This document shows, in pieces, positions 8,410 through 31,566 of a DNA stretch of 37,343 bases (its first letter is position 1; each line of letters starts with the position of its first letter). The stretch spans positions 1 through 37,343 of the forward strand of contig NZ_JAIXST010000114.1 of assembly GCF_027484545.1 (NCBI RefSeq), given 5' to 3'. The notes beneath the pieces are model-generated. The model searched no databases. It was not told where the DNA came from and was given only the letters and a program-made list of their open reading frames with translations. A program made the translations under genes and the position numbers. Origin of the DNA: Runella sp. (lineage in GTDB: Bacteria; Bacteroidota; Bacteroidia; Cytophagales; Spirosomataceae).

Positions 8410-9636
8410 TTAGTTCAAGCCTAACGATTTTAAAATTTCAGTTACTTTTGCCGCTGCTTCTTTGAATTCGATGGCAGAAACTACTTTCAAACCGGATTCA
8501 TTGATGATGCGAACACCTTCTTCGGCATTTGTTCCCTGTAAGCGTACGATGATAGGGACTGGAATATCACCAATGGCTTTGTAAGCTTCTACAACTCCCG
8601 TAGCTACGCGGTCGCAACGAACAATACCACCGAAAATATTGATAAGGATTGCTTTTACGTTCGGGTCTTTCAGGATAATACGGAAACCTGCTTCAACAGT
8701 TTTAGCATTGGCACCACCCCCAACGTCTAAGAAGTTGGCCGGTTCACCGCCTGAAAGTTTGATCAAGTCCATGGTTCCCATTGCCAAACCGGCACCGTTT
8801 ACCATACAGCCTACGTTTCCGTCCAATTTGACGTAGTTGAGGTTATTTTCGCCTGCTTCCACTTCCAAAGGATCTTCTTCGTTGGTATCGCGCATCAAAG
8901 CAAGGTCAGCGTGGCGAATGAGGGCGTTGTCGTCCAAATCTACTTTCGCATCAATGGCCATGATTTTATCATCCGACGTTTTCAACACTGGGTTGATTTC
9001 AAACATAGAAGCGTCTGATTCCCAATAAGCTGTGTAAAGCGATGTGATGAATTTTACCATTTCTTTGAAGGCATTGCCCGATAAACCAAACGCAAACGCA
9101 ATTTTGCGAGCTTGGAATCCCTGCAAACCAACACGTGGGTCAATCCATTCTTTGATGATTTTTTCGGGAGTGTGCTCGGCTACTTCTTCAATGTCCATCC
9201 CACCTTCGGTACTTGCCATAATGACAGGGCAACCTTTGGCGCGGTCTAAAAGAATAGAAATATAGAATTCTTTTGGCTCAGAAGCACCCGGGTAATACGC
9301 GTCTTCGGCCAAAAATATTTTATTTACTTTCTTGCCATCGGGTCCGGTTTGATGAGTCACCAAAACATGTCCGAGGAGGTTTGTTGCCACTTCACGAACT
9401 TGGTCGGGTGATTTAACCACCTGTACACCACGTTGTTCGCTGTTAACAATTTTGCCTTTTCCGCGACCGCCCGCATGGATTTGCGATTTCACAACCACAA
9501 ACTTTGAACCTGTCCGCTCTGCAATGGTGCGATAGGCTTCAACGGCGCGTTCAGGGGTATCTACCACGATGCCATCCTGGATACGGACACCGTATTTTTT
9601 GAGTATTTCTTTTCCTTGGTACTCGTGTATATTCAT
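8410..9636 (-). CDS. sucC: Succinyl-CoA synthetase (ADP-forming) subunit beta
   Basis: Converts succinyl-CoA + ADP (or GDP) + phosphate to succinate + CoA + ATP in the TCA cycle; cytoplasmic, works with the alpha subunit SucD. 408 residues, near the usual length. The N-terminal ATP-grasp domain starts MNIHEYQGKEILKKYGV; KSQIHAGGRGKGK follows, then the metal-binding segment FEINPVLKT...IDAKVDLDD, and the C-terminal ligase domain with GGANAKTVEAGF and NIFGGIVRCDRVA. sucD is not adjacent, as is common in this phylum. The ATG at 9636 matches the conserved N-terminus exactly. The gene is monocistronic. Confidence 0.98.
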   Translation of the reverse strand: MNIHEYQGKEILKKYGVRIQDGIVVDTPERAVEAYRTIAERTGSKFVVVKSQIHAGGRGKGKIVNSEQRGVQVVKSPDQVREVATNLLGHVLVTHQTGPDGKKVNKIFLAEDAYYPGASEPKEFYISILLDRAKGCPVIMASTEGGMDIEEVAEHTPEKIIKEWIDPRVGLQGFQARKIAFAFGLSGNAFKEMVKFITSLYTAYWESDASMFEINPVLKTSDDKIMAIDAKVDLDDNALIRHADLALMRDTNEEDPLEVEAGENNLNYVKLDGNVGCMVNGAGLAMGTMDLIKLSGGEPANFLDVGGGANAKTVEAGFRIILKDPNVKAILINIFGGIVRCDRVATGVVEAYKAIGDIPVPIIVRLQGTNAEEGVRIINESGLKVVSAIEFKEAAAKVTEILKSLGLN

Positions 9637-9804
9637 ACTATTATTTTGGTGAGTGTTTGTAATATTTGGTTTGGCCGTGCCAAATTACGGAAAAGTTTTA
9701 ACTTGATTGTTGAATTTGGGCACATAATTAGACGTTCTTTGTGTAACTAACCCAAGAAAGCTTTGCTAAAACGTCTCATTCATCGGTTCCGGAGGTACCG
9801 CTTT

Positions 9805-16523: not shown

Positions 16524-19500
16524 ATGGCATTGCAACGGAAAAGCGCATTTGGGCAAACTTGGTGGGGACAACAGTGGATCAAGGTGTTGGAAGGATTGGA
16601 TCAAAGTGGACGATTGGCGCGGGGGCGCACCTACGCCAACAACGGCTCGGTACAAAGTATCGCTTTTGAGGGCAACAAAATTGCCGCTCGGGTGAAAGGG
16701 ACATCGCCCAGACCCTACAAAATAGCGTTCAAAATTGAGCCGCTTTCTTCTTCTGATAAGGCTCGGCTGGTAAGCTTAATTACCGACAATCCGCTGTATT
16801 TGACGCAATTGCTGAATCGTCAGTTGCCTTCGGAACTGTATAACGATTGCGAACGCAAAGGCATTTCTCTGTTTCCGCGCTCGTGGGATGCCTTTCATTC
16901 CGATTGCTCCTGCCCCGATTGGGGCGACCCCTGCAAACACCGCGCTGCTGTGTTGTATTTGGTGGCCAATGAAATTGACAAGAACCCTTTCCTGATTTTT
17001 GAACTTCGCGATTTTGACTTATTCAAAAGTCTGGAAGCCTTGGGTTTTGCCTCGTCCGACCAAAAAAACGTAGAAACACTCGACGTGGCTGATTTGCGTC
17101 AACCGTTTGAGGGGTCCGAAGAGACTGATTTTCAACCCGATGCAACCCTCTACGACGCAATTGACTTTTCGATTCTTCCCGACGTGTCGGAGAGTTTACT
17201 GTCGTTACTGGGTGATAATCCGCTGTTTTATCGAACGGGCAATTTTAAGCAGGTTTTACAAAAATTTTATACCGAAACCGCCAAAAAAGCTCGTGCGTTA
17301 GTCATCGCCGACGAACCCCGCGAGCAGGATTATGACAAAGATTTGGATGCTGTAGAAAGTGCGGATATTATCATGGACGAGGCGATGGGCTTTTTGCAGG
17401 CCAATTTCCGCGACACCCGCGAGCGGATTGTATTTCAATTTGACGAACTTCCCAAGCTTGTTGATTGGATTCATCGCCTGCCTTCGGCGCAGTTACCCCA
17501 ACTTTCTCCTACGCTCAAAGGGCTGTATTTTCTGAACCTTTTGGCAAATAAACTGCTCGAACGCGGGGCGATTGTTCCACAATTAGTGCGAGCAAAACTC
17601 AAAAAAGAATACCACTTGGTTCGCTGGATACCGGCTACTCTGAACGAGCAAGTTGCTACCTTATCGAACCAAGTCAGGGCAGTTTTACCCCCTGAAATCC
17701 TCTACTATAAAATCGGAAAACGTGATATATTTATTCCCATCGAAAGCGATTTTATCAATGCGGTATGTTCGCTCATTTTGACGGAGCGCGTACGGCAATT
17801 CAATGACTACTTTGACTACAAAGCCACCGATACCGATGACCTGTTCTTCCGAAATTCAATGGTTTATTTCGGAGGTTTTGAGTCGCGTGAAATACCAAAC
17901 AGTGTACAGTTGTGGTTGAATAAATTTTTCATTGCTCACCGCGATTTTGTGCCTGTGTTGCAAGTGGAAGAGTTGGAAGAAGGCTTTCGAGTAAACGTAT
18001 TGGTCGAAAACAAAAAGTCAGAATTAGCTGCGCTTATTCCGCTCGAAACCTTCATGGAAGAACGCGAATATGCCCCGGTACGAATGGGAGTGATGCGTGA
18101 CCTTTCCATGATGGCGGAGCATTTTCCGCAACTCAATCGCCTGATTGCTGGAAAAGGAACTGAACCGCTGTTGTTTAATTCAGAGAATTTTACCGAAATA
18201 CTCCTCAAAATACTGCCTACAATCCGACTTTTCGGCATCAAAATTCAATTGCCCAAGGCGTTACAAAAATTGCTTCGCCCGCAACTTTCGATGACGCTCG
18301 ACAGCGAAGAAGACGGGAAAGTGGCCGCTTCGTCGGTGATTAGTTTGGAAACCATGCTCAAATTTCGCTGGGAAGTGGCGGTTGGCGATGAACACATTGA
18401 CAGCGCAACGTTTGGGAGGATGGTCGAAAACTACAAAGGGTTGGTCAAAATTAAAGACCAGTATGCGTATTTTGACGAAAAAGAAATCAAAACGCTACTC
18501 GAAAAGCTCAAAAACCCTCCTGCTCTTGACAGCAATGATTTACTGCAAACCGCACTTACCGAAGAGTATAATGGCACGGGCGTAACACTCACTAAATCAG
18601 CGCAAAAGTGGATGAAGGAGTTGCTAAAAAATGAAGCCGTGCCTTTGCCTGAACGCCTTACCGCCAACCTGCGCCCTTACCAGCAGCGTGGCTATGAATG
18701 GCTGTACAAAAACGCTCGCCTCGGGATGGGAAGCCTCATTGCGGATGACATGGGACTGGGAAAAACCCTGCAAGTAATTACTGCCCTCCTGAAAATGAAA
18801 CAGGAGGGGGCATTCAAGAAAATCAAAGGCTTAATAGTTGTTCCCACCACACTGCTGACCAACTGGTCTAAAGAAATCGCAAAGTTTGCTCCTGAACTGC
18901 GACTGCATCTCTACCACGGCCCCGGGCGTAGCTTGCCCCAACTCAACGAAGCCGATATTTTGCTAACCACTTACGGAGTGATTCGAAGCGAGGAAGAATC
19001 GTTGAGCAAACAGAGATGGTCAGTGATGGTGATAGATGAAGCCCAAAACATCAAAAACCCCAACACAGCGCAAACCAAGGCCGTCAAAAAAATGAAGTCG
19101 GGCATCAAAATTGCCATGAGCGGAACTCCCGTCGAGAACCGCATGGCGGAATACTGGTCTATTTTTGATTTTGCCAACAAAGGCTACCTCGGCAGTCTGA
19201 AAAAATTTGTGAGTGATTATGCCATCCCCATCGAGATAGACCGCGACCAACACGCGCTGGACAAGTTTAAGCGAGTAACGGAACCGTTTATTTTAAGGAG
19301 GGTCAAAACCGATAAGAAAATCATTCAAGACCTGCCCGACAAAATTGAAATCGACCAAGCTTGCACGCTCACCAATGAACAGGCAGCTCTGTATCAAAGT
19401 GTGGTAGACCAAGCCTTGCGCGGTATTGAAGGCCAAAAAGACGGATTTAAGCGAAGTGGGTTGATTTTTAAAATGATGACCGCCCTCAAGCAAATTTGTA

Positions 19501-20069
19501 ACCATCCAACGCACTACCTCAAAAAAGGAGGCGCTCAGCCCGAAGCATCGGGTAAGACACTTTTACTGCTTGATTTGATTCGGCAAATCCTTGAAAATGG
19601 CGAAAAAACGCTCCTATTTACCCAATACGAAGAAATGGGAACGCTGTTACAAACGATGTTTCAGGAGCAAATGCAGCTGGAAGTGCCTTTTTTACACGGG
19701 GGAGTGAGTCGCAAAAACCGTGACGAAATGGTCGAAGATTTTCAGAACAATCGTTCTACGCGTATCCTGATTTTATCGCTAAAAGCAGGGGGGACTGGTT
19801 TGAATCTAACCGCGGCTAACAACGTGATTCACTACGATTTGTGGTGGAATCCTGCGGTGGAGGCACAAGCCACTGACCGGGCGTTTCGGATTGGTCAGAC
19901 CAAAAACGTGCTGGTGCACCGTTTCATTACGCAGAACAGTTTTGAAGAAAAGATCAATAAACTCATTCAGAATAAACGCGAACTCGCCAACCTTACGGTT
20001 ACCGATGGAGAAACGTGGCTCGGCGATTTGTCAAATAAGGATTTGAGGGAATTAGTGAAGTTGGGATAA
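16524..20069 (+). CDS. SWIM zinc-finger / SNF2-family ATPase fusion
   Basis: 1181 residues. The N-terminus (FGQTWWGQQWIKVLEGL, GRLARGRTYANNGSV) is the start typical of bacterial SWIM-domain proteins. The zinc ligands are Cys128, Cys130, Cys137 and His139 (CSCPDWGDPCKH). A long middle region (about 180-690) is probably a SNF2-associated domain. The SF2 motor follows: DDMGLGKT (Lys747), VIDEAQNIKN (DEAQ box, Asp838), SGTPVENR, and C-terminal LKAGGTGLNLTAANNVIHYD with ATDRAFRIGQ. Such proteins translocate on double-stranded DNA and remodel bound proteins; the biological role is unknown. SWIM and SNF2 proteins are often separate neighbouring genes in other bacteria, so this is a fusion form. It converges on leuS and is about 3.2 kb upstream of three co-directional motor genes. 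Confidence 0.93.
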   Translation: MALQRKSAFGQTWWGQQWIKVLEGLDQSGRLARGRTYANNGSVQSIAFEGNKIAARVKGTSPRPYKIAFKIEPLSSSDKARLVSLITDNPLYLTQLLNRQLPSELYNDCERKGISLFPRSWDAFHSDCSCPDWGDPCKHRAAVLYLVANEIDKNPFLIFELRDFDLFKSLEALGFASSDQKNVETLDVADLRQPFEGSEETDFQPDATLYDAIDFSILPDVSESLLSLLGDNPLFYRTGNFKQVLQKFYTETAKKARALVIADEPREQDYDKDLDAVESADIIMDEAMGFLQANFRDTRERIVFQFDELPKLVDWIHRLPSAQLPQLSPTLKGLYFLNLLANKLLERGAIVPQLVRAKLKKEYHLVRWIPATLNEQVATLSNQVRAVLPPEILYYKIGKRDIFIPIESDFINAVCSLILTERVRQFNDYFDYKATDTDDLFFRNSMVYFGGFESREIPNSVQLWLNKFFIAHRDFVPVLQVEELEEGFRVNVLVENKKSELAALIPLETFMEEREYAPVRMGVMRDLSMMAEHFPQLNRLIAGKGTEPLLFNSENFTEILLKILPTIRLFGIKIQLPKALQKLLRPQLSMTLDSEEDGKVAASSVISLETMLKFRWEVAVGDEHIDSATFGRMVENYKGLVKIKDQYAYFDEKEIKTLLEKLKNPPALDSNDLLQTALTEEYNGTGVTLTKSAQKWMKELLKNEAVPLPERLTANLRPYQQRGYEWLYKNARLGMGSLIADDMGLGKTLQVITALLKMKQEGAFKKIKGLIVVPTTLLTNWSKEIAKFAPELRLHLYHGPGRSLPQLNEADILLTTYGVIRSEEESLSKQRWSVMVIDEAQNIKNPNTAQTKAVKKMKSGIKIAMSGTPVENRMAEYWSIFDFANKGYLGSLKKFVSDYAIPIEIDRDQHALDKFKRVTEPFILRRVKTDKKIIQDLPDKIEIDQACTLTNEQAALYQSVVDQALRGIEGQKDGFKRSGLIFKMMTALKQICNHPTHYLKKGGAQPEASGKTLLLLDLIRQILENGEKTLLFTQYEEMGTLLQTMFQEQMQLEVPFLHGGVSRKNRDEMVEDFQNNRSTRILILSLKAGGTGLNLTAANNVIHYDLWWNPAVEAQATDRAFRIGQTKNVLVHRFITQNSFEEKINKLIQNKRELANLTVTDGETWLGDLSNKDLRELVKLG

Positions 20070-20072
20070 AAA

Positions 20073-20119
20073 AACGTCGGCGAGGTTTTGAACGGGGTCG
20101 CCCAGACCTTGCCGACGTT
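20073..20119 (-). terminator. Hairpin terminator between SWIM-SNF2 gene and leuS
   Basis: Arms 20073-20086 (AACGTCGGCGAGGT) and 20106-20119 pair over 14 bp with one mismatch or wobble, loop of 19 nt. On the minus strand it is followed by a T-run (A7-8 at 20067-20074 on the plus strand), so it is a proper rho-independent terminator for leuS and can also stop the plus-strand transcript. Confidence 0.75.
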
Positions 20120-20137
20120 CTCGTGCTGACGTTTTCG

Positions 20138-23041
20138 TTACAAAACTACATTCACAATACGCTTCGGCACCACTACCACTTTCTTGGGCGTATTGCCTTC
20201 CAGCCATTTTTGAACGGTTTCATTCGCCAAAACTCCCTGTTCGATGTCTTCTTTGGACATATCTATGGGGAACGGAATGTTGGCGCGTACTTTGCCATTG
20301 ATTTGAATGGGGTATTCAAACGAGCTTTCTACCAAGTACTTAGGTTCAAATTTTGGGAATGGAGCGCTTGAAATCGTGCCCTCTTCGTTACCAAGCGCTA
20401 CCCACAACTCTTCGGAAATGTGCGGAGCGTACGGCGACAACAAAATCACCATATCATTCAAAATTGCTTTTTTGTGACATTTCAAATCGCTCAAATCATT
20501 GACCGCAATCATAAACGTAGAGACAACCGTATTGAAAGAATAACGGTCAATATCGTCTTCCACGCGTCTGATGGTGCGGTGCAATACCTTCAATTCATCC
20601 GCTGTCGGCTCGGCATCTACCCATTTTTGTTTACCCGTTTGGTCGTCAAAAAACAACCGCCAGAATTTACGCAGGAAGTTGGACGTACCGCTGATACCGT
20701 TGGTGTTCCAAGGTTTGGCATCGGTCAATGGCCCTAAGAACATTTCGTATAAACGCAAGGTATCGGCCCCGTAGCGAGCTACTACATCGTCCGGATTGAC
20801 AACGTTGTAAAGCCTTTTGGACATTTTTTCAACCGCAAATCCACATACATACTTGCCTTTGGCAGGGCCGCTTTCTTCCAGAATAAACTCAGACTCATTG
20901 TAATAAGAGCGCCACTGCTTGAATGCTTCTGTATTTAACACATCATTTTCAACTATGTTGACATCTACGTGAAGCTGAGTGACTTCGTATTGTTCTTTTA
21001 AGCCATGTGAAACAAAAACAGGCTTTTTACCTTCGCCTTCCGATGATTTCAGGCGATACACAAAATTGCTGCGTCCCTGAATCATGCCTTGATTGACCAA
21101 TTTAGCCGCGAATTCTTCTTCGGGAACCAATCCCAGATCTTTCAGGAATTTATTCCAAAAACGACTGTACAATAAGTGCCCGGTAGCGTGCTCAGAACCA
21201 CCCAAGTAAAAATCGATGCGCTGCCAGTAATCAATCGCTTCTTTGGAAGCAAAAGTGCCGTTGTTTTGAGGGTCCATGTAGCGGTACCAATACCAAGATG
21301 AGCCCGCCCAACCCGGCATGGTGCTGAGTTCCAGCCCCCACCCAGCCTCCCCCAATAGGGGAGGGGTATCTAAAGCACCCATTGGGGGTTTGGGGGCTGG
21401 CTTGTACGTCCAGTTTTCCGCACGACCCAATGGTGGTTCGCCCGTTTCGGTGGGTAGGTATTTGTCAATTTTAGGTAATTCCAACGGTAAATCAGCTTCA
21501 TCAATCAGGTAAGGAACACCGTCTTTGAAGTAGGCAGGTACGGGTTCACCCCAGTAGCGTTGGCGACTGAAAACGGCATTGCGAAGGCGATACTGCACTT
21601 TTCCTTTGCCCACTTTTCGCTCTTCCAACCATTTGGTCAATGTATCGGTCCCTTCTTTGTACGTCATGCCATTGATAATACCGGAATTGATGTAACGGCC
21701 TTCTTTGGTGTTGTCGGCTTGTTGATCAATGTCTTTTTGGCTGTCCAAAATCGGAAGGATTGGTAACTCAAAATGAGTCGCAAAATTCCAGTCACGTTGG
21801 TCACCCGAAGGAACGCCCATTACGGCGCCCGTTCCGTAGCCCGCCAATACGTAATCGGCTAAGAAAATAGGTACTTTTTCTTCACTCAACGGATTGATGC
21901 AATAGCTTCCCGTAAACACGCCCGTCACTTTCTTTTCGGCCATCCTATCCACTTCGCTGCGACTTGCCGCCCATTTGATATAGGCTTCTACAGCATCTTT
22001 TTGCTCAGGGGTAGTCAATTCCATGGCCCATTCGTGCTCAGGAGCCAATACCATAAAACTCACACCGTAAATGGTATCTACGCGAGTGGTGAAAACCTCG
22101 ATAGATTTTTGATTTTTGATTGTCGATTGTCGATTTTGGGAATCATTCGGCAATCGCAAATCAGCAATCGCAAATTTGACAGAAGCTCCCTGCGAGCGGC
22201 CTATCCAGTTGCGTTGCTGTTCTTTCAGAGGTTCGGGCCAGTCGATGGTGTCCAAACCGGACAATAAACGGTCGGCGTAAGCAGTGATGCGCATGGCCCA
22301 CTGTTTCATCAATTTACGCTCTACCGGAAAACCGCCGCGTTCCGAAACACCGTCTTTTACTTCGTCGTTGGATAGTACGGTTCCCAAACCCGGGCACCAG
22401 TTGACGTAGGATTCTTCGGGGAAAGTAAAGCGGTATTTTAACAACACTAACTGTTGTTCTTTTTCGCTCATTGCTTTCCATTCTTCGGCCGAAAATTCGA
22501 TGACATCTTCATCGCAAACGGCGTTAACGGCAGCAGAGCCTCCTGTTGAGAACTGAGCCGTTAAGTGGCTTATGGGCAGTGCTTTGTCAGCGCTTTTGTC
22601 GTAGTAGTGGTTGAATAACTGCATGAAAATCCATTGCGTCCATTTGTAAAAATTGGGGTCAGACGTACGGATTTCGCGGCTCCAGTCGTAGCTAAAGCCA
22701 ATGTTTTTCAACTGACTGATGAACGTGTTGATGTTTTCTTCGGTCGTAATGGCTGGGTGCTGACCCGTTTGGATGGCGTATTGCTCGGCAGGAAGCCCAA
22801 AGCTGTCGAAGCCCATGGGGTGCAACACATTAAACCCTTTGAGTTTTTTATAACGCGAAATAATGTCAGAAGCGATGTAACCCAGTGGATGTCCTACGTG
22901 CAAACCCGCTCCTGAAGGGTAAGGAAACATGTCGAGGACGTAATACTTGGGTTTACTGTGGTCAATTTCAGTCTTGTAGGTTTGGTTTTCTTCCCAAAAC
23001 TGCTGCCATTTTTTTTCAATTTCGCGGTGATTGTATTCCAT
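20138..23041 (-). CDS. leuS: Leucyl-tRNA synthetase with two in-frame repeat insertions
   Basis: Charges tRNA-Leu; cytoplasmic class Ia synthetase. 967 residues, roughly 40 more than usual. The N-terminus is MEYNHREIEKKWQQFW; the HIGH motif is HVGH in YPSGAGLHVGHPLGY. The CP1 editing domain has TTRVDTIYG and the mischarging-pocket GTGAVMGVPSGDQRD. The catalytic loop is EKMSKRLYNVVNPDD (KMSKR rather than KMSKS, which I believe is common in this group). The extra length comes from a 24-residue insert before VFTTRVD (LRLPNDSQNRQSTIKNQKS) and about 20 residues (PAPKPPMGALDTPPLLGEAG) before LSTMPGWAGSSWY. Both are encoded by palindromic repeats. Essential and apparently intact, so both inserts must be tolerated. 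It is transcribed divergently from the UvrD-like gene. Confidence 0.97.
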   Translation of the reverse strand: MEYNHREIEKKWQQFWEENQTYKTEIDHSKPKYYVLDMFPYPSGAGLHVGHPLGYIASDIISRYKKLKGFNVLHPMGFDSFGLPAEQYAIQTGQHPAITTEENINTFISQLKNIGFSYDWSREIRTSDPNFYKWTQWIFMQLFNHYYDKSADKALPISHLTAQFSTGGSAAVNAVCDEDVIEFSAEEWKAMSEKEQQLVLLKYRFTFPEESYVNWCPGLGTVLSNDEVKDGVSERGGFPVERKLMKQWAMRITAYADRLLSGLDTIDWPEPLKEQQRNWIGRSQGASVKFAIADLRLPNDSQNRQSTIKNQKSIEVFTTRVDTIYGVSFMVLAPEHEWAMELTTPEQKDAVEAYIKWAASRSEVDRMAEKKVTGVFTGSYCINPLSEEKVPIFLADYVLAGYGTGAVMGVPSGDQRDWNFATHFELPILPILDSQKDIDQQADNTKEGRYINSGIINGMTYKEGTDTLTKWLEERKVGKGKVQYRLRNAVFSRQRYWGEPVPAYFKDGVPYLIDEADLPLELPKIDKYLPTETGEPPLGRAENWTYKPAPKPPMGALDTPPLLGEAGWGLELSTMPGWAGSSWYWYRYMDPQNNGTFASKEAIDYWQRIDFYLGGSEHATGHLLYSRFWNKFLKDLGLVPEEEFAAKLVNQGMIQGRSNFVYRLKSSEGEGKKPVFVSHGLKEQYEVTQLHVDVNIVENDVLNTEAFKQWRSYYNESEFILEESGPAKGKYVCGFAVEKMSKRLYNVVNPDDVVARYGADTLRLYEMFLGPLTDAKPWNTNGISGTSNFLRKFWRLFFDDQTGKQKWVDAEPTADELKVLHRTIRRVEDDIDRYSFNTVVSTFMIAVNDLSDLKCHKKAILNDMVILLSPYAPHISEELWVALGNEEGTISSAPFPKFEPKYLVESSFEYPIQINGKVRANIPFPIDMSKEDIEQGVLANETVQKWLEGNTPKKVVVVPKRIVNVVL
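21331..21400. repeat. C/G-rich palindromic element inside leuS
   Basis: 70 nt bounded by CCAGCCCCCA (21331-21340) and its exact complement TGGGGGCTGG (21391-21400), with an inner pair CCCCCAAT (21349-21356) and ATTGGGGG (21381-21388). It is translated in leuS as the PAPKPPMGALDTPPLLGEAGWG segment, absent from leucyl-tRNA synthetases I know. The core CCCCCAAT/ATTGGGGG is shared with the element inside kdsB. Confidence 0.8.
22104..22177. repeat. 7-mer-periodic palindromic element inside leuS
   Basis: GATTTTT occurs twice, then GATTGTC twice, then GATTTTG, each exactly 7 nt apart. After a loop region (about 22139-22150) come CAATCGC, AAATCAG, CAATCGC and AAATTTG in the opposite orientation. The two halves can pair imperfectly. 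It is read in frame in leuS as a polar, low-complexity peptide (Asn/Gln/Ser/Lys rich) at the start of the editing domain. Confidence 0.75.
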
Positions 23042-23049
23042 TTTTTTCT

Positions 23050-23135
23050 GTTATCAGTATATCGGTTATTCGTTATTCGAGGATTGATGATAGCTTCAAC
23101 GGATAACTATTAACAATTCAACAGATAACGGTTAC
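23050..23135. repeat. 7/8-mer inverted repeat array between leuS and the UvrD-like gene
   Basis: The left half carries GTTATC, GGTTATTC and GTTATTC; the right half carries GATAAC, ATTAAC and AGATAAC, i.e. inverted copies of a 7/8-nt unit around a central region near 23080-23098. It lies in the leuS leader and resembles the periodic element inside leuS in design but not in exact unit. Confidence 0.55.
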
Positions 23136-23146
23136 AAAATAGGGCG

Positions 23147-23154
23147 CAAAATTA
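23147..23154 (-). promoter_or_regulatory. Possible leuS -7 element
   Basis: On the minus strand the bases read TAATTTTG, an exact TAnnTTTG match, about 106 nt upstream of the leuS ATG. No clear TTTG at the expected -33 position, so partial support. The leader would contain the inverted 7/8-mer array. Confidence 0.4.
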
Positions 23155-23170
23155 CTGCTTTTCGATGACT

Positions 23171-23202
23171 TTTGGGTTTTGGGGGTGAAATTGTTATTTT
23201 TG
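23171..23202 (+). promoter_or_regulatory. Predicted promoter of the helicase operon
   Basis: TTTG at 23171-23174, a 20-nt spacer, and TATTTTTG at 23195-23202: both elements and the spacing match the Bacteroidota consensus. Expected start is about 23209, giving a leader of about 75 nt before ATG 23286. It is back-to-back with the putative leuS promoter. Confidence 0.65.
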
Positions 23203-23285
23203 AGGAAAAAGCCTTGAAGTATGTGATGGGTTTCGACTCATAAAATAACTACAGAGGTTCACGGAAAAAACTAACAGGTTGACTA

Positions 23286-26183
23286 ATGAATTTACTTTTT
23301 TACAACGGCTTAGAATACCACAAATTACAAAAACAATTCGATAAAACGGTTGCGTATCTGCAAGCAGGGGATTTTCGGTCGGCCGATGTAAAAAAAATGC
23401 CGAATGCAGGATTTTATCGCGCCAAGTTGGACGATACCAACCGCTTATTATTCAAAATAGGACTCTTCAATGGTCAAAAATACGTATTACTTCTCGAAGT
23501 TATCCTCAATCACGCCTACGATAAATCACGGTTTTTGAATGGGGCGCTCATCGACGATAGTAAATTGGTAGCGGTGGTATCGGAACAAAATCTCCAGCCT
23601 GCCGACCTTATGCCCGTAGGCTACGTCAATCCCAACCGCAAGTCATTTCATATCTTAGACAAGATTTTGTCGTTTGACGATACCCAAGCCGACATTCTCA
23701 ACTTGCCAACGCCTACCATCGTCATTGGTTCGGCTGGAAGTGGCAAAACCGCACTTACCCTCGAAAAAGCCAAGACCCTCATAGGGCGTGTCCTTTACAC
23801 GACACTTTCCCCGTATTTGGTCGAAAATGCTCAAAACCTGTATTATTCGTTTGGTTATGAAAATTCCAAACAGGAAATTGACTTTCTGTCCTTTAATGAA
23901 TACCTCTCGACGTTTGAAGTACCCGTAGGCAAGGAGTTGGATTTTAGGGCATTTGACCAATGGGCGAGCCGCTATCGTCAGAGCCATAAAATCAAAGATA
24001 CCTACAAGCTATTTGAAGAATTTAAGGGCGTATTGACGGGTTCTATTGTCGAAAAACTGTATTTAACCGCTGATGATTATCAAAATTTGGGCATCAAGCA
24101 GTCTATTTTTTCGGCTTCGGAGCGCGATTCGGTGTATGATTTGTTCAAAAAATACCTGGATTGGTTGCCTACGAGTAGCTATTTTGACAGCAATATGGTG
24201 GCTTATCACTTACTCCAACGCATTGAATCCCAGTACGATTTTGTGGTCATTGACGAAGTCCAGGATATTACCAATGTACAATTGGCCTCGATTCTAAAAT
24301 CGCTGCATATTTCTACTAATTTTATTTTGTGCGGTGACTCCAACCAGATTGTTCACCCTAATTTCTTCTCCTGGTCGCAGGTAAAAAGCTTGTTTTACAA
24401 ACAGGATTTGCGGGGCAATATCATTCGGGTATTGGCGACCAACTACCGCAACACCCCCGAAGTAACCAACATTGCCAATCAACTTTTATTGATCAAAAAT
24501 GCCCGTTTCGGTTCCATTGACAAAGAAAGTACCTACTTAGTAAAACCCAATTCTACCCACGCCGGTGTGGTGGAGTTTTTGGAAAATCAACCCAAAATCA
24601 ACGCCGATCTCAATCAAAAAACCAAGCGTTCGGCCAATTTTGCGGTGTTGGTATTGCGCAACGAAGACAAAGCGGAAGCCAAACGGTTTTTCCAAACACC
24701 GCTGTTGTTTTCGGTGCAGGAAGCCAAAGGATTGGAGTACGAAAATATCATTTTGTATAATGTCATTTCCAACTACGACAAAGAATTCAGGGAGTTGACC
24801 AACGGCGTTTCAAGTGAAGATTTGCAGGTAGAAAATATCAAATTTTCGCGCGGAAAAGACAAATCTGATAAGTCGTTGGACGAGTTTAAATTTTACGTGA
24901 ACGCCCTCTACGTAGGCATGACCCGAGCCGTCAAAAATCTGTACGTGGTCGAATCCAACAAAAAACACGATTTGCTTCAACTGCTTGGGTTGACTAATTT
25001 TAAGCAACAAACCTCACTCAAAGACCAAGCCTCCAGTCAGGAAGAATGGCAGCGCGAAGCCCGCCGTCTCGAAATGCAGGGCAAACAGGAACAGGCCGAT
25101 GCCATTCGCCAACAGATATTGAATGTGCAACCCGTGCCATGGGAGGTAACCACCCGCGCCAAACTGCATGATGTAATCACTCAGGCGCTGAATCCCGAAA
25201 GTTTTAACAAAAAAGCCAAAGATTGTCTCTTTGAGTATGCGCTGTATTACAATGAGACGAGTTACTTTGACAAACTCAAAGCTCTCAAATACCGCCCTGC
25301 CGAGCGTTGGGAACAGGAAGGGAAAGGCATTTTGAAACGCATGTTTTCGGAATATGCCGCCGACAACTTAAAATTGTTGCAGCCCAAACTCCAACGCTAC
25401 GGCGTAGATTTTCGGAATGAACTCAATTTGACACCGTTTATGTTGGCAATCAATTACGGGGCTGAAAACATTCTGAAATATTTAGCCGAGAACGGGACTA
25501 ATACGCACCTGACCGACAGCTATGGCCGCAATGCGCTCCAAATAGTGATGCTGAAGGTCTATGCCGATGCCACGCTCAAAGCCAAAACCATTAACCGTCT
25601 TTATTCATTACTCAAAGGAGATGCCATTCGGGTAAAAGTGGACAATCGCCTTATCAAAGTCGATAATCATCAAGCAGAGTTTGTGATGCTCAATTTTATG
25701 TTGGCAGTCTTGCGTCCGCATCTGATTAAAGGCACTGGAAACAAACAGTGGTTTTACGGCACAGACCAAGATATGCCCACTTTCCAAACCAAAGATTTCC
25801 TGAGCTTTTACGAAGGCCTTTCTGAGCAGGTGATTCCCGAGTACCGCCGTAAACGGGCGTATTTGAGCAGTATTTTGGGTAAAAATGAAGTCTTGGGTAC
25901 AGATAAATACAATAAGAAACTTTTTGTCAGGCTTCGCCAAGGGCATTATTTGCTAAATCCTACCCTCGAAATCCTGATAGATGACGATTGGGTAAATGTG
26001 TATGATTTAATTGATTTGGAAGATATTATTGAGAATCACGCTGTTACGGCCACGGGATTCATTCAACAAATTCACCACCACCGCCAACGACTCAAAAAAG
26101 ACCCTAACGCTGTTTTTGACCAAACTGCTTTTTGGAAGGAATTGTATGAAGAAATGGAAAAAGGAAAAGTGGATAATGGATAA
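23286..26183 (+). CDS. UvrD-like SF1 helicase with RelE-like N-terminus and ankyrin-like C-terminal part
   Basis: 965 residues. Residues about 1-95 resemble the RelE/ParE-type fold (FYRAKLDDTNRLLFKIG, VLLLEVILNHAYDKS); this is inferred from pattern only. The SF1A motor spans about 120-560: Walker A GSAGSGKTA (Lys154), DEVQD (Asp323-Glu324), CGDSNQ, TNYRN, QEAKGLEYENIILYN and ALYVGMTRAVKNLYVV. The tail (about 565-965) includes a Gln-rich linker and ankyrin-like units (LNLTPFMLAINYGAENILKYLAENG, DSYGRNALQIVML, about 715-765), then an unrecognised region. It probably translocates on single-stranded DNA or RNA; the flanking modules suggest sensing or protein contact. First gene of a long plus-strand unit with its own promoter. 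Its last codons and stop lie at the edge of a repeat array. Confidence 0.88.
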   Translation: MNLLFYNGLEYHKLQKQFDKTVAYLQAGDFRSADVKKMPNAGFYRAKLDDTNRLLFKIGLFNGQKYVLLLEVILNHAYDKSRFLNGALIDDSKLVAVVSEQNLQPADLMPVGYVNPNRKSFHILDKILSFDDTQADILNLPTPTIVIGSAGSGKTALTLEKAKTLIGRVLYTTLSPYLVENAQNLYYSFGYENSKQEIDFLSFNEYLSTFEVPVGKELDFRAFDQWASRYRQSHKIKDTYKLFEEFKGVLTGSIVEKLYLTADDYQNLGIKQSIFSASERDSVYDLFKKYLDWLPTSSYFDSNMVAYHLLQRIESQYDFVVIDEVQDITNVQLASILKSLHISTNFILCGDSNQIVHPNFFSWSQVKSLFYKQDLRGNIIRVLATNYRNTPEVTNIANQLLLIKNARFGSIDKESTYLVKPNSTHAGVVEFLENQPKINADLNQKTKRSANFAVLVLRNEDKAEAKRFFQTPLLFSVQEAKGLEYENIILYNVISNYDKEFRELTNGVSSEDLQVENIKFSRGKDKSDKSLDEFKFYVNALYVGMTRAVKNLYVVESNKKHDLLQLLGLTNFKQQTSLKDQASSQEEWQREARRLEMQGKQEQADAIRQQILNVQPVPWEVTTRAKLHDVITQALNPESFNKKAKDCLFEYALYYNETSYFDKLKALKYRPAERWEQEGKGILKRMFSEYAADNLKLLQPKLQRYGVDFRNELNLTPFMLAINYGAENILKYLAENGTNTHLTDSYGRNALQIVMLKVYADATLKAKTINRLYSLLKGDAIRVKVDNRLIKVDNHQAEFVMLNFMLAVLRPHLIKGTGNKQWFYGTDQDMPTFQTKDFLSFYEGLSEQVIPEYRRKRAYLSSILGKNEVLGTDKYNKKLFVRLRQGHYLLNPTLEILIDDDWVNVYDLIDLEDIIENHAVTATGFIQQIHHHRQRLKKDPNAVFDQTAFWKELYEEMEKGKVDNG

Positions 26184-26229
26184 CAGATACACGGAAAACG
26201 GATACACGGATTACAGATATACAAATAAC
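26171..26229. repeat. 7/8-mer direct repeat array between two helicase genes
   Basis: Units GGATAAT, GGATAAC, AGATACAC, GGAAAAC, GGATACAC, GGATTAC and AGATATAC follow each other in one orientation. The array is flanked by GGAAAAGT (26163-26170) and its complement ACTTTTCC (26228-26235). It supplies the final codons and stop of the UvrD-like gene and fills the 60-nt gap before the SNF2 gene, so it would form a hairpin in the shared transcript. Confidence 0.6.
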
Positions 26230-26243
26230 TTTTCCACTAAAAA

Positions 26244-29036
26244 ATGAGCAATTCGCTTTTTGAACAATTTCGTAAATCCAAAGCATTGGCAGTTGCCTCA
26301 ACGTCAGGCAAAAAAGAGAGTATTAGTGTGCAGCTTTGCTTTGATGAAAATGGGGCGTACGTTCAGCTTCTTAACGCTAAAAATGAGATAGTTACGCCTG
26401 ATTATCAGTCCTATAGCGGGACATTGCGCAATTTAGTAAGGGCAATTCAGCAAATCCATGAACGCAATGAGTTTGTGATTGATTGGGAAAATCCTTCTTC
26501 GCAGCTTTATCTGCACCAATACGACTACTTACTCGAATACGTTCGGCAGTGTTCCGACGTGATTGATGAGCGTCATAAACCCGTGGTATTTACAGATTTA
26601 CGGGGCGAATTACACCTTCAAATCCAAAAACAGGACCCCAAAAAATTTGAATCGCGCGTGCGATTGCTAGTGGAAGGCAGTTATGAAGAAGATTTTTTAT
26701 TGCTGAACGAACGATACGCGCTGTCGAACGGGCGAGTTATTGAAATCAATGAAGTGGGGCCTGCGTTTAACCGTATTCCTTTGTTTGACACGGAGTTGCT
26801 GCCTTCCGAATTGACCAAATACCTGTCGTTGGCGTTGTCGTATTTGGAAAATGTGCGGGTGGAGTACGAAGATTTTCAACTTAAAGCGGCCGATCCCATC
26901 GTTGCCTCACCCTGTTTGATTTTTGAAAAAATTGACGCCGACGATTCGCTGTACATCCGCGTAGCCCAACAACTTCCCCAAACGGATACTGACTTTTTGG
27001 AAGAGTTTGAACTCTATCGCTACGCCGATATAAATGAATTGGAACGGACGATTTACGTACGCGTCATTGAGCGTCAATCGCTTGATTTACTGATTCAAAC
27101 CATCGAAAAACTGGTCGAAAAGCACGTTCCCAAGGAAAAAGGCCGTCGTAAATCGTCGGGGCAATACATCGTGGAAGGTAATTTATTCGTCATTCCCCGC
27201 GAAATTGCGGGCAGTTTTATTTATCAGGAATTGCCCAATTTGCTCGAAACCTTTCAGCTTTTTGGGGCCGAAAAGCTCAAGCAATACAAAATCAGCACCC
27301 ATCCGCCGCGCTTGGATTTGAGCCTCAATCACGGCATTGATTTTCTGGAAGGAGATGCCACCATCAGCTTTGGCGAAGAGCGTTTGGGGCTGTTTGAAGT
27401 CATCAGGCAATACCGCCAACAACGCTACATTCAACTTACCGATGGCAGTCACGCGCTGGTGAATGAGTCGTATATCCAAAAGCTGGAACGTCTGTTTAAG
27501 AAGGCTAAGAAAGACAAAGTGCAACTTTCGTTTTTTGATTTGCCGTTGGTAGAAGAACTTCTCGAAAGTGCCGTAGCCGAAGCTACCCTCAAAAAATCGC
27601 GTTCCTTCTTTGAAGGACTCAATCAGTTGGCCAACCAAAAACCGAAAACGGCCAAAGTCAACGCTACCTTGCGACCGTATCAACAGCGCGGTGTGCAGTG
27701 GTTGGAATATTTACAGGAAAGTAAGCTCAACGGCTGCTTGGCCGACGACATGGGCTTGGGCAAAACCCTGCAAACGATTACGTTGCTATCGCGGTTTTAT
27801 CCTAAGCAAGCTAAATCTACGCTGGTAGTGATGCCTAAAAGTTTGTTGTTCAACTGGCAAAAAGAAATCGAACGTTTTAACCCCAATCTGACTACTTACA
27901 CCTATTATGCCGATACCCGCGATTTGGACGAAGCTTGTAAGCATCACCTGATTTTTACGACCTACGCCCTGCTCCGCAACGACATTGAAAAGTTTCAGAA
28001 GAAGGAGTTTTTCTACGTGGTATTGGACGAATCTCAAAACATCAAGAATCTCCAATCGCAGGCCAGTCGAGCGGTGGTGTTGCTCAAAGCCGACCACCGC
28101 TTGGCCTTGAGTGGTACGCCCATCGAAAACAACCTGTCGGAGCTGTATTCGCTGTTTCGGTTCCTGAATCCTGCCATGTTTGGCACGGCGGAGGCGTTCA
28201 ATCAGCATTACCTGACACCCATCCAAAAACATAACGACCCGGACGTGATTCAAGAATTACGCAAGAAAATATACCCTTTTATCCTGCGGCGTTTGAAGAA
28301 AAATGTGTTGACCGAACTCCCCGATAAAATAGAGCAGGTGCTGTACGTGGAGATGTCGGAAGAGCAGCGGCTGTTTTATGAACAACGTCGTCGTTTTTAC
28401 AAAGATAACATTGAGCGACAAATTGCCGAGAAAGGGTTGGAGCAGAGTCAATTCTTTATCTTTCAGGCATTCAATGAGTTGCGCCAAATTGCCAGTGTGC
28501 CCGAAGCCAAAGCCGACCGTCCGATGGAGTCGCCCAAAATCGAAACCTTAATAGAACAACTTTCAGACGCCGCCGCCAACGGCCATAAAATGTTGGTGTT
28601 TGTTAATTTCCTTAACGCCCTTGAGCGCATCGGTGAGCAGCTTGATGCGCAGGGTATCGACTACGTGAGCATGAGCGGCTCTACCCGTGACCGGCAGCGG
28701 TTGGTGGAGCGTTTTCAGAATGATACCAATTGCAAGGTGTTTTTGATGACCCTCAAAACGGGCGGAACAGGCCTGAACCTCACTGCTGCCGATATGGTGT
28801 TTGTTTTTGATCCTTGGTGGAACAAAGCCGCCGAAAATCAGGCCATAGACCGTACGCACCGCATTGGACAAACCAAGAAAGTGATGGCCTATAAGATGAT
28901 TACGCAGGGAACCATCGAAGAGAAAATCATGCAGTTACAGGAAAAGAAAGCCGAACTGCTCAACGCCATTATTTCTTCGGATGCCGCCTCGTTGAAATCG
29001 TTCAGTGAGGCCGATATTGCCTTTATGTTGGGGTAG
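26244..29036 (+). CDS. SNF2-family DNA-dependent ATPase
   Basis: 930 residues. The first about 440 have no recognised domain and no zinc finger. A RapA/SNF2-type motor follows: TLRPYQQRGVQWLEYL, DDMGLGKT (Lys507), VLDESQNIKN (DESQ in place of DEAH, Asp595), SGTPIENNLSELYSLFRF, then helicase-C motifs FVNFLNALERIGEQL, LKTGGTGLNLTAADMV, FVFDPWWNKAAENQA and RTHRIGQTKKV. The motor half is clearly related to that of the SWIM-SNF2 fusion about 6 kb upstream, but the N-terminal halves differ, so they are not a simple recent duplication. It lies 60 nt after the UvrD-like gene and 27 nt before the XPB-like gene. Expected to remodel protein-DNA complexes; specific role unknown. Confidence 0.93.
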   Translation: MSNSLFEQFRKSKALAVASTSGKKESISVQLCFDENGAYVQLLNAKNEIVTPDYQSYSGTLRNLVRAIQQIHERNEFVIDWENPSSQLYLHQYDYLLEYVRQCSDVIDERHKPVVFTDLRGELHLQIQKQDPKKFESRVRLLVEGSYEEDFLLLNERYALSNGRVIEINEVGPAFNRIPLFDTELLPSELTKYLSLALSYLENVRVEYEDFQLKAADPIVASPCLIFEKIDADDSLYIRVAQQLPQTDTDFLEEFELYRYADINELERTIYVRVIERQSLDLLIQTIEKLVEKHVPKEKGRRKSSGQYIVEGNLFVIPREIAGSFIYQELPNLLETFQLFGAEKLKQYKISTHPPRLDLSLNHGIDFLEGDATISFGEERLGLFEVIRQYRQQRYIQLTDGSHALVNESYIQKLERLFKKAKKDKVQLSFFDLPLVEELLESAVAEATLKKSRSFFEGLNQLANQKPKTAKVNATLRPYQQRGVQWLEYLQESKLNGCLADDMGLGKTLQTITLLSRFYPKQAKSTLVVMPKSLLFNWQKEIERFNPNLTTYTYYADTRDLDEACKHHLIFTTYALLRNDIEKFQKKEFFYVVLDESQNIKNLQSQASRAVVLLKADHRLALSGTPIENNLSELYSLFRFLNPAMFGTAEAFNQHYLTPIQKHNDPDVIQELRKKIYPFILRRLKKNVLTELPDKIEQVLYVEMSEEQRLFYEQRRRFYKDNIERQIAEKGLEQSQFFIFQAFNELRQIASVPEAKADRPMESPKIETLIEQLSDAAANGHKMLVFVNFLNALERIGEQLDAQGIDYVSMSGSTRDRQRLVERFQNDTNCKVFLMTLKTGGTGLNLTAADMVFVFDPWWNKAAENQAIDRTHRIGQTKKVMAYKMITQGTIEEKIMQLQEKKAELLNAIISSDAASLKSFSEADIAFMLG

Positions 29037-29063
29037 TTAAAGAATTAAAATTGCAGATTTAAA

Positions 29064-30959
29064 ATGACACAAGCCGAACTTATAGAACTTATTGAGCTAC
29101 TCATAAAAAACGGCACGAGCAACCAAAAAAGCCGTAATACCATTGCGAGCGATGTGGCAAAGCAGTACCTACGACAATCGGGCTGCCCATTGAAGGAGGA
29201 TATTATCAGCGATATAGACAATCATTATTTTAAAGAAGGGTTGGTTGAATTGGCGAAGTATGTCCGTAAAATGGTCAATGCCAATAAAAATTGGTTAGAG
29301 TCACTGAATTTGAAGTTGCCTTATGATTTGGTGAACAAAATAGATATCAATACCGCTCCTAAGGCTAAATTGGTGTGGAGTGTGGCGGTGATTTTCAGTA
29401 AACCCGAGGTGATGCGGAAGTTTCATGCCGAACTGCCCGAAGCTTTGCAAAAGGCGTTTGAGCAATTGACGTGGATTTCAGAAGCCAAAGCCGAGATATT
29501 AAGTGATTTGATAGGAATTCCTACCACGAAGAAGAAAAGTTCATCTTATTACGATAGCTCTGTCGAAATCAGTCAGGTGTTTAAAGCTTTGCCGCACAAA
29601 ATTGAGTCTTGGAACGGCAATATCACTTTTGCTTGGCCGGCGCATTTGCGCGAATTTTTGCGAGGTGTATATCCCGTTCCCGAAAGTTTTTACATTAAAA
29701 CCATCTCCGAGCCACCCGGAAACCTGCTGCGTTGGGAAGAAGGAGAAGTGGTTATTTTTGAAGAAATCCAAAAGTTACTGGCGTATCGGTTGCAAGGAGC
29801 TATTACGGTCAATACTTCGGGGAAAGTAGCGGCCACCGCGTTTAAGAAAATGCGCAAAACCTTGGGAGTAAGGGAGTTTGTGCCCGATGAGGAATCCTTT
29901 TCGTTGCTTCGTACCACCTGTCTGGCGCAAATGTTGGCTTCTTATGAACCAAAAAAGAATCAGATAAACATTGATTCGTTAGAAATTTTGAAACAGCTTC
30001 GCAAAACACTTGACAAGGATTTTAACATTTTATTCCTGCTCAACGACCTCAAAAATCATGGTTACGTCAATCTGCATTATTATAAACGACAAGCTGAAAA
30101 GACCCTGATTGAGTGGATGGAGCGGCTACCCAAAAACGAATGGGTGTCGGTAGAAAACCTGACGGCTTACGCCCAAATTCATGACCTTAAAATGCAGCCC
30201 GCTTCGCCGAGCGAATACCAAAGCTTGGCCTATGAAGTACCTTCTCAGTTTGGCTCACATACCAACAAGCTCAATATTTCGGGGGGGAATGCGTATTTCT
30301 TTGTGGAGCGTCCCGCTTTATTGTCGAGCTTTTTTCTGATGGCGGCTCTGGGTTGGCTTGATATTGCGTACGAAGCTCCCAATGGAACGTTTGCAGAGGA
30401 TTACTATTCAAGTTACGATGGCCTCAAATGCGTGCGGCTCAATGATTTGGGGGCCTACATTTTCGGGCGCAGTCCTGCGGGTGAGTATACGCCCAAGGTC
30501 AATAAAGCGACGCAGGAACTGGTTTTTGATGACCAATCGCTGCTCATTTTTTGTGACCCCGAAAATGCCGTCGCCGAGACCGTACTGGCCAATTACGCCG
30601 AGCGCGTAAGCTCGACTCGTTTTCGGGTGACGGCCGATACGTTTTTGAAAGATTGCAAATCGCGGTCGCAGCTGATGTCCAAGATTACGCTTTTTCAGAA
30701 ATCGGTTGCGCCCCATTTACCCCCCAATTGGCACCATTTTTTTGATGATTTATTGGTCAAAGCCGAGCCGCTCAGAGCCGTCAGTGATTTGTTGGTTTTT
30801 CAAATTCCGTCTACTAATCAAACACTTATTCGATTGTTGGCGCAAGATCCTGTCCTGAAAACGTTGGTCATCAAAGCCGAAGGTTTTCGGGTATTGGTTG
30901 CCCAAAATCAGCAAGTCAAATTCAAAAACCGCCTCCGTGAGCTGGGTTATTTGATGTAG
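29064..30959 (+). CDS. Protein with XPB/Helicase_C_3-like accessory domain, helicase-linked
   Basis: 631 residues, no signal peptide, no ATPase motifs. The C-terminal third (about 490-631) has the pattern of the Helicase_C_3 / XPB-Ssl2 N-terminal family: an opening strand LLIFCDPENAVAETVLANYAE, then RFRVTADTFLKDCKSRSQLMSKI, and a final small domain ending VAQNQQVKFKNRLRELGYLM. Earlier parts look like winged-helix units (GWLDIAYEAP..., VRLNDLGAYIFG). In other bacteria this family co-occurs with SF2 helicases and probably acts as a DNA- or partner-binding subunit. The 27-nt distance to the SNF2 gene suggests a shared complex. The family call is my own pattern match and should be treated as moderately sure. 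Confidence 0.75.
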   Translation: MTQAELIELIELLIKNGTSNQKSRNTIASDVAKQYLRQSGCPLKEDIISDIDNHYFKEGLVELAKYVRKMVNANKNWLESLNLKLPYDLVNKIDINTAPKAKLVWSVAVIFSKPEVMRKFHAELPEALQKAFEQLTWISEAKAEILSDLIGIPTTKKKSSSYYDSSVEISQVFKALPHKIESWNGNITFAWPAHLREFLRGVYPVPESFYIKTISEPPGNLLRWEEGEVVIFEEIQKLLAYRLQGAITVNTSGKVAATAFKKMRKTLGVREFVPDEESFSLLRTTCLAQMLASYEPKKNQINIDSLEILKQLRKTLDKDFNILFLLNDLKNHGYVNLHYYKRQAEKTLIEWMERLPKNEWVSVENLTAYAQIHDLKMQPASPSEYQSLAYEVPSQFGSHTNKLNISGGNAYFFVERPALLSSFFLMAALGWLDIAYEAPNGTFAEDYYSSYDGLKCVRLNDLGAYIFGRSPAGEYTPKVNKATQELVFDDQSLLIFCDPENAVAETVLANYAERVSSTRFRVTADTFLKDCKSRSQLMSKITLFQKSVAPHLPPNWHHFFDDLLVKAEPLRAVSDLLVFQIPSTNQTLIRLLAQDPVLKTLVIKAEGFRVLVAQNQQVKFKNRLRELGYLM

Positions 30960-31004: not shown

Positions 31005-31256
31005 ATGCGAGCCATCATGAAAAACCCGGTCATTCAAATAGATCCTGAAATACAGAGTGGCGAACCTGTATTTTTTCAAACCCGTGTCCCGATAAAAAGC
31101 CTTTTCGATTATTTAAGTACGGGCGAAAGTTTAGAAACCTATTTGGAAGATTTTCCTGCGGTTACGAAAGAACAAGCCTTGGTTGTAATTGAGCAATCCG
31201 GGCATTTATTGCTTCAAGCGTATCAAATTATCAATGCAGAAAATATTGTTAGATGA
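31005..31256 (+). CDS. DUF433 antitoxin-like protein
   Basis: 83 residues (79 if ATG 31017 is used). It contains the DUF433 pattern: IQIDPEIQSGEPVFFQTRVPIKSLFDYLSTGESLETYLEDFPAVTKEQALVVIE. This is a small helix-turn-helix related to the VapB-type partners of DUF5615 proteins, and presumably binds DNA and the toxin. It is 45 nt after the XPB-like gene and overlaps the next gene by 23 nt. As the first gene of the pair it should autoregulate, though it may also be read through from the helicase operon. Confidence 0.88.
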   Translation: MRAIMKNPVIQIDPEIQSGEPVFFQTRVPIKSLFDYLSTGESLETYLEDFPAVTKEQALVVIEQSGHLLLQAYQIINAENIVR

Positions 31257-31566
31257 GAATATTCCTAAAAGACTTAAGTTTAGGCTTTTAGATGCAGGAG
31301 TAAATGTGCTAACCGTTCGTGATATGGATTGGCTTAGCATTAAGAATGGAAAATTGCTCAAACTGGCAGTAGAAAATGGCTTTGATGTTTTTATCACTAC
31401 TGACAAAAATATTCCTTATCAGCATAATATATCTCAAATAGACTTGGCAATCATTATTCTAAATGTGTCAAATCTTAAATATGAGTTTGTTCAACCTCTT
31501 CTACCTAAAATTGTTGCCCTTATTCCAACTACAGAAAAAGGACAAATTTACATTTTGCAAATATGA
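31234..31566 (+). CDS. DUF5615 PIN-like toxin protein
   Basis: 110 residues from ATG 31234 (MQKILLDENIPKRLKFRLLDAGVNVLTVRDMDW). The conserved acidic residues of DUF5615 PIN-like nucleases are present: LLDENIP near the start, and FITTDKNIPY in the middle. Usually paired with DUF433 as a type II toxin-antitoxin module; the likely activity is RNA cleavage (family inference). The upstream in-frame alternative at 31189 would lie inside the antitoxin gene and is rejected. Its stop overlaps the kdsB start (ATGA at 31563-31566), so toxin and kdsB translation may be coupled. Confidence 0.88.
   Translation: MQKILLDENIPKRLKFRLLDAGVNVLTVRDMDWLSIKNGKLLKLAVENGFDVFITTDKNIPYQHNISQIDLAIIILNVSNLKYEFVQPLLPKIVALIPTTEKGQIYILQI

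Follow-up and report, generated by a model that had tools for sequence, protein, structure and literature searches.

The window analysed here is a 37,343-nucleotide stretch of Runella sp., one contig of a 7.12-Mb genome. An earlier note, made from the letters alone, had described four large genes in it as a cluster of nucleic-acid motors or motor-associated genes, possibly one system. The genes and their coordinates agreed with our open reading frames. The first encodes a SWIM-SNF2 fusion (16524..20069, + strand; SWIM 3.3e-6, DUF3670 5.8e-22, SNF2 1.7e-64), and is followed on the - strand by leuS (20138..23041; TIGR00396, 907 bits). Three + strand genes come next, encoding a 965-residue SF1/UvrD-like helicase with ankyrin repeats (23286..26183; UvrD_C and AAA_19, ankyrin at 25.6 bits, below its cut-off), a 930-residue SNF2-family ATPase (26244..29036; SNF2 1.7e-70) and a 631-residue protein (29064..30959). 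Their G+C contents (43.1, 46.6 and 45.0%, respectively) are near the window mean of 44.3%. We found that the four genes are not one system and that the fourth protein is not a motor. The SNF2 and 631-residue genes form a two-gene module in which the SNF2 ATPase is the motor, and its partner appears to be a bacterial protein structurally related to p52/Tfb2, a subunit of the transcription and DNA-repair factor TFIIH.

Pairing of the SNF2 and 631-residue genes

Among 296 Bacteroidota genomes, the 631-residue protein was found in seven, and a 23-member family profile recovered the same seven and one partial match (8.4e-4). The N-terminal half of the SNF2 protein gave strong matches in these same seven genomes. 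Its weaker matches in 27 further genomes (best E 1.9e-14 to 5.7e-4) are to other SNF2 proteins; 26 of them fall within about residues 289-470, and one also within 231-425.

A pattern-seeded scan of the genomes of 84,980 species identified 23 loci encoding relatives of the 631-residue protein, most of them from metagenome-assembled genomes (MAGs). They come from Saprospiraceae, other Bacteroidota, Ignavibacteria, Marinifilum, Verrucomicrobiales, KSB1, Desulfamplus, a Deltaproteobacteria MAG, Desantisbacteria, SAR324, Fusobacteriaceae, Omnitrophus, Sabulitectum, two further bacteria and three actinobacteria. With the three distant actinobacterial loci set aside, an SNF2 homologue adjoins the 631-residue homologue at 17 of 20 scan loci. 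Adjacency could be judged at 24 loci, namely 18 from the scan (the 17 adjacent ones and L102), four from Bacteroidota, one from Fusobacterium vincentii and the window, and the two genes are adjacent at 23 of them. This count scores as adjacent L103 and L105, where a contig end cuts the SNF2 gene, and leaves out L101 and L115, where the contig start is too close (209 and 323 nt upstream, respectively). L020 and L024 duplicate the contigs of L112 and L114. Two paralogues of the 631-residue protein are encoded at L097, L113 and L114, and at L113 and L114 they flank the SNF2 gene on its two sides. The trees of the two families also agree (r = 0.80, 0 of 5000 permutations, 21 loci), in a comparison uncorrected for shared organism ancestry.

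The SNF2 and 631-residue genes are therefore a true two-gene module, with near-strict pairing and a patchy distribution. Since they adjoin at unrelated loci (23 of the 24 that could be judged), their order does not reflect vertical synteny around leuS, and the gene-neighbourhood check suggested in the earlier note came out in favour of this pair.

Outside the adjacency count, the stretches examined around the distant relatives L116-L118 and L120-L122 contain no SNF2 homologue of this kind. The gene for one distant p52-like relative, on a conjugative plasmid of Cupriavidus taiwanensis, immediately precedes a Wadjet JetABCD operon (L120:6903-16277).

The neighbours of the pair are diverse. Those inspected directly have metabolic or regulatory functions or encode topoisomerases or polymerases, with oxidoreductases, transporters, histidine kinases, topoisomerase I (L098) and DNA polymerase III alpha (L119) among them. 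In one Bacteroidota genus, a Cho/UvrC-like fusion of an exonuclease (RNase_T) with GIY-YIG is encoded behind the pair (L018:15381-17102, L112:11665-13353). Phage defence had been proposed for these genes, and the pair could be a Zorya- or DISARM-like immune module, in which the SNF2 protein acts on phage DNA and the 631-residue protein is a sensor. The defence proteins ZorD, DpdE and DrmD do have a related SNF2 motor, and the predicted N-terminal model of the SNF2 protein resembles ZorD. However, its NCBIfam scores stay far from the curated cut-offs (ZorD 229 of 1500 bits, DpdE 59 of 500, DrmD 109 of 950 and 48 of 610), and its constant partner is a p52-like protein. PADLOC was run at 1e-15 on 116 of the 119 neighbour proteins of at least 150 residues at L096-L114, a set that leaves out L100:9964-13539, L110:2720-6997 and L112:1014-4679 and has no random-neighbour control. 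It matched 37 families, and each of the 25 listed matches one to three proteins, many being SNF2-type models with a single match. This is no clear enrichment, and a defence island was rejected for these neighbourhoods. ZorA and ZorB are not among the 25 families listed, although no gene-by-gene search for them was made. A tblastn search of 50,697 phage records found no relative, and viral contigs scanned from a seed pattern gave 28 pattern matches, none of which was confirmed. Among plasmid records, the pair was seen only in that of Fusobacterium vincentii, which at 2.1 Mb is chromosome-like; with the phage searches blank, mobile carriage was rejected as well. As the neighbourhoods examined lend it no clear support, a role in immunity appears rather unlikely.

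We give the same low probability to an action on RNA polymerase like that of RapA or Mfd, in which the pair would recycle or remodel stalled complexes with the 631-residue protein as adaptor. The SNF2 protein has no RapA tudor or C-terminal domain. A true RapA gene adjoins the pair at L104, so the two functions are likely distinct. Because the neighbours are diverse and defence genes are not prominent among them, genome maintenance is preferred, with defence and RNA polymerase remodelling as live rivals.

Predicted likeness of the 631-residue protein to p52

The 631-residue protein had no match in Pfam, NCBIfam or PADLOC at 0.001. It carries no Walker A or DEXX-type motif and matches no helicase family, nor any nuclease family. 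Its best PDB sequence row has an E of 0.55, and the family profile has no PDB sequence match. The AlphaFold model (predicted local distance difference test, pLDDT, 83.5) consists of a helical N-terminus, a winged-helix region at about 205-470, a clutch-like region at about 481-567 and a C-terminal domain at about 567-631. In a Foldseek search of 350,542 PDB chains, ranks 1-25 were all TFIIH, and the first other protein followed at E 0.76. Ranks 1-13 are TFIIH chains judged to be p52/Tfb2 by titles and numbering. Foldseek and VIA-align place the winged-helix and then the clutch region of this predicted model in the p52 order, and residues 481-565 fit chains containing the XPB N-terminal domain.

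The 631-residue protein thus has in common with p52/Tfb2 (which works with XPB and p8) the predicted order of winged-helix and clutch-like domains, followed by a putative counterpart of its C-terminal domain, and it is encoded beside an SF2-type translocase. It differs in its extra helical N-terminus. Five relatives of 823-884 residues (L101, L102, L104, L107, L109) have a longer N-terminal extension with cysteine motifs, zinc finger-like by eye, and HEAT-type repeats also occur, HEAT_2 being matched by 4 of the 23 family members. The likeness could be coincidental, arising from common winged-helix and small alpha/beta pieces in an unrelated adaptor. This appears improbable, given the unbroken run of TFIIH chains in Foldseek and the p52 order of the matching regions; in one relative, moreover, Helicase_C_3 is reached independently by sequence, and an XPB gene is the neighbour.

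That relative, L115, is one of the 23 family members. It matches PF13625 at 1.4e-5 (25.6 bits, against a cut-off of 34.2), and its gene overlaps an XPB helicase gene. The distant relative L118 reaches 55.3 bits, above the cut-off. Compared with bacterial XPB/Helicase_C_3 proteins, the window protein has no PF13625 match at E up to 10, lacks an ATPase domain and is paired with SNF2. The earlier description of it as XPB/Helicase_C_3-like survives by relationship in its Helicase_C_3 half, through L115 and the fit of residues 481-565, but not as an XPB motor, as no ATPase core motif is present. At L158, a 661-residue open reading frame separates a Modestobacter XPB gene from a Helicase_C_3/WYL gene that runs in the same direction. 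A direct profile link to XPB (4% probability, E 0.01) was rejected. Archaeal XPB-Bax1 likewise couples a translocase to a single dedicated partner. Bax1, however, is described in passages of PMC13024598 as a nuclease, and the 631-residue protein matches no such family.

There are also differences from p52 and limits to the comparison. None of the 23 family members matches the Tfb2-type Pfam family at E up to 10. The protein is bacterial, and its usual partner gene encodes an SNF2 ATPase instead of XPB. At L102, the sole exception among the 24 loci, about 440 nt are available upstream and hold no SNF2 gene. Finally, it is uncertain that SNF2 has simply taken the place of XPB, because G377, a SAR324 MAG that carries the pair, also encodes an archaeal-type XPB (L149:1273-2652; best PDB rows RAD25/XPB, 1.5e-102) and G376 has an XPB-related helicase. 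For the same reason we withdrew the lack of XPB in pair genomes as support, and this, together with the exception at L102, slightly lowered our confidence. To a bacterial-type XPB query, 11 of 13 pair genomes gave weak partial matches or none; all four genomes with more distant 631-residue relatives (4/4) have a close XPB. No XPB-type clutch was seen in the N-terminal half of the SNF2 protein, where one may still be present. Since a sequence-profile match to Tfb2 is lacking, we call the protein p52-like and not a p52 family member; its sequence homology to p52, a complex with the SNF2 protein and the function all remain putative.

The UvrD-like gene and the gap between leuS and kdsB

The earlier note had suggested that the three co-directional genes encode one complex, of which the SNF2 and 631-residue part stands as a conserved module. 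Full-length relatives of the UvrD-like protein occur in 23 of the 296 Bacteroidota genomes; in a further 64 the matches are weaker and fall mostly on the helicase core. These 23 carriers overlap with the seven carriers of the 631-residue protein only in the genome of the window. The nearest relative found (65% identity) is in G317, from another genus of the family; its 11.9-kb contig carries neither the SNF2 nor the 631-residue gene. The flanks examined at other loci of the pair yielded no UvrD-like relative. Although the unit is tight and co-directional here (gaps of 60 and 27 bp), a three-protein complex is very improbable and was rejected for lack of co-occurrence (1 of 296 genomes); the UvrD-like helicase accompanies the pair locally in this genome but is no obligate subunit.

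Relatives of the UvrD-like protein are also found on plasmids, those of Shigella, Escherichia, Piscirickettsia, Methylosinus and Deinococcus among them. Of 133 matching plasmid records, 127 cover at least 80%, with 38-42% identity among the 20 matches listed. By eye, the N-terminus of the protein is a candidate for a RelE-type fold.

The SWIM-SNF2 gene is present at full length, with 87-88% identity, in six of nine same-genus genomes tested and in G317. The gene is conserved within the genus and counts as background outside the module.

Between leuS on the left and kdsB on the right (at 31563) lies an extra stretch of 8.5 kb, holding the UvrD-like gene and the SNF2/631-residue pair. We compared seven SWIM-SNF2 loci (six from the same genus, one from another), of which three show leuS beside kdsB, while the other four contain neither gene within the stretch covered. 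These three same-genus genomes are without the stretch: the spacing is 56 bp in G305 and G296 (L089, L093), and G303 (L095) has only a 195-residue open reading frame (9123-9710) in the gap. No match to the 631-residue protein turned up in 12 further genomes of the genus or in G249, a genome of the same family. Upstream of the three-gene unit, a promoter-like site is located at 23172..23202 on the + strand (-33 TTG, -7 TAnnTTTG). The stretch carrying it, next to leuS, has 85% identity over 75 bp in G303, where it precedes a different small open reading frame; hence the genes behind it differ between relatives. The adjacency of leuS and kdsB in relatives, together with the shared promoter-like stretch, makes insertion the likely history of the 8.5 kb. 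The different frame in G303 further suggests that the gap is a variable cargo site.

The site itself is the single match in the window to TTG-N20-TAnnTTTG, which we take to be the Bacteroidota-type promoter consensus. By chance, 0.81 matches are expected, and 53 of 100 shuffled sequences contain at least one; a sigma-70 scan listed no + strand site at 23172-23202. The consensus promoter of the earlier note is thus present as a Bacteroidota-type match, at a frequency near that expected by chance.

Between the 631-residue gene and kdsB, two overlapping + strand genes encode a DUF433 protein (31005..31256; PF04255, 4.4e-14) and a DUF5615 (PIN-like) protein (31234..31566; PF18480, 2.3e-10). The G+C content of this pair (31005-31566) is low at 34.7%, and the two genes resemble a toxin-antitoxin-like pair.

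Proposed function of the pair

In human TFIIH, p52 holds and regulates the XPB motor. Passages of the published literature describe it as recruiting XPB and stimulating its ATPase, yet limiting the DNA-driven rate. By analogy, the 631-residue protein may bind the SNF2 motor, position it on DNA and tune its ATPase and translocation, as p52 does for XPB. More speculatively, the complex could serve genome maintenance by tracking along DNA and remodelling or opening the duplex at damaged or blocked sites. It might then hand over to general repair enzymes, because no nuclease is constant in the module.

The pair is probably for genome maintenance. A repair or remodelling role, which the earlier note had left equally open, is thus favoured but unproven, and the p52 link is absent from that interpretation. 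As a full explanation, including genome maintenance, a two-gene module of an SNF2 ATPase and a non-catalytic p52/Tfb2-like partner is held with moderate confidence. A 2012 paper reports that a p52-type subunit is not found in bacteria. Among the open-licence papers listed in our searches (PubMed Central), we found no report of an SNF2/p52-like pair; reports elsewhere are possible. We put forward only tentatively that bacteria own a counterpart of the XPB-p52 core of TFIIH, with a p52-like regulator beside SNF2 at nearly all loci and beside XPB in at least one. In that case, p52-type regulators would either be older than TFIIH or have been exchanged among domains, and the pair would amount to a DNA-opening machine with the minimum of two subunits.

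If the fold and the pairing are true, bacteria carry a p52-type subunit, whose motor is in most cases an SNF2 protein. How the TFIIH core arose would become testable, and the way in which p52 both stimulates and restrains its motor could be studied in a simple two-protein system. It would also put a name to a widespread, apparently uncharacterised candidate for genome maintenance.

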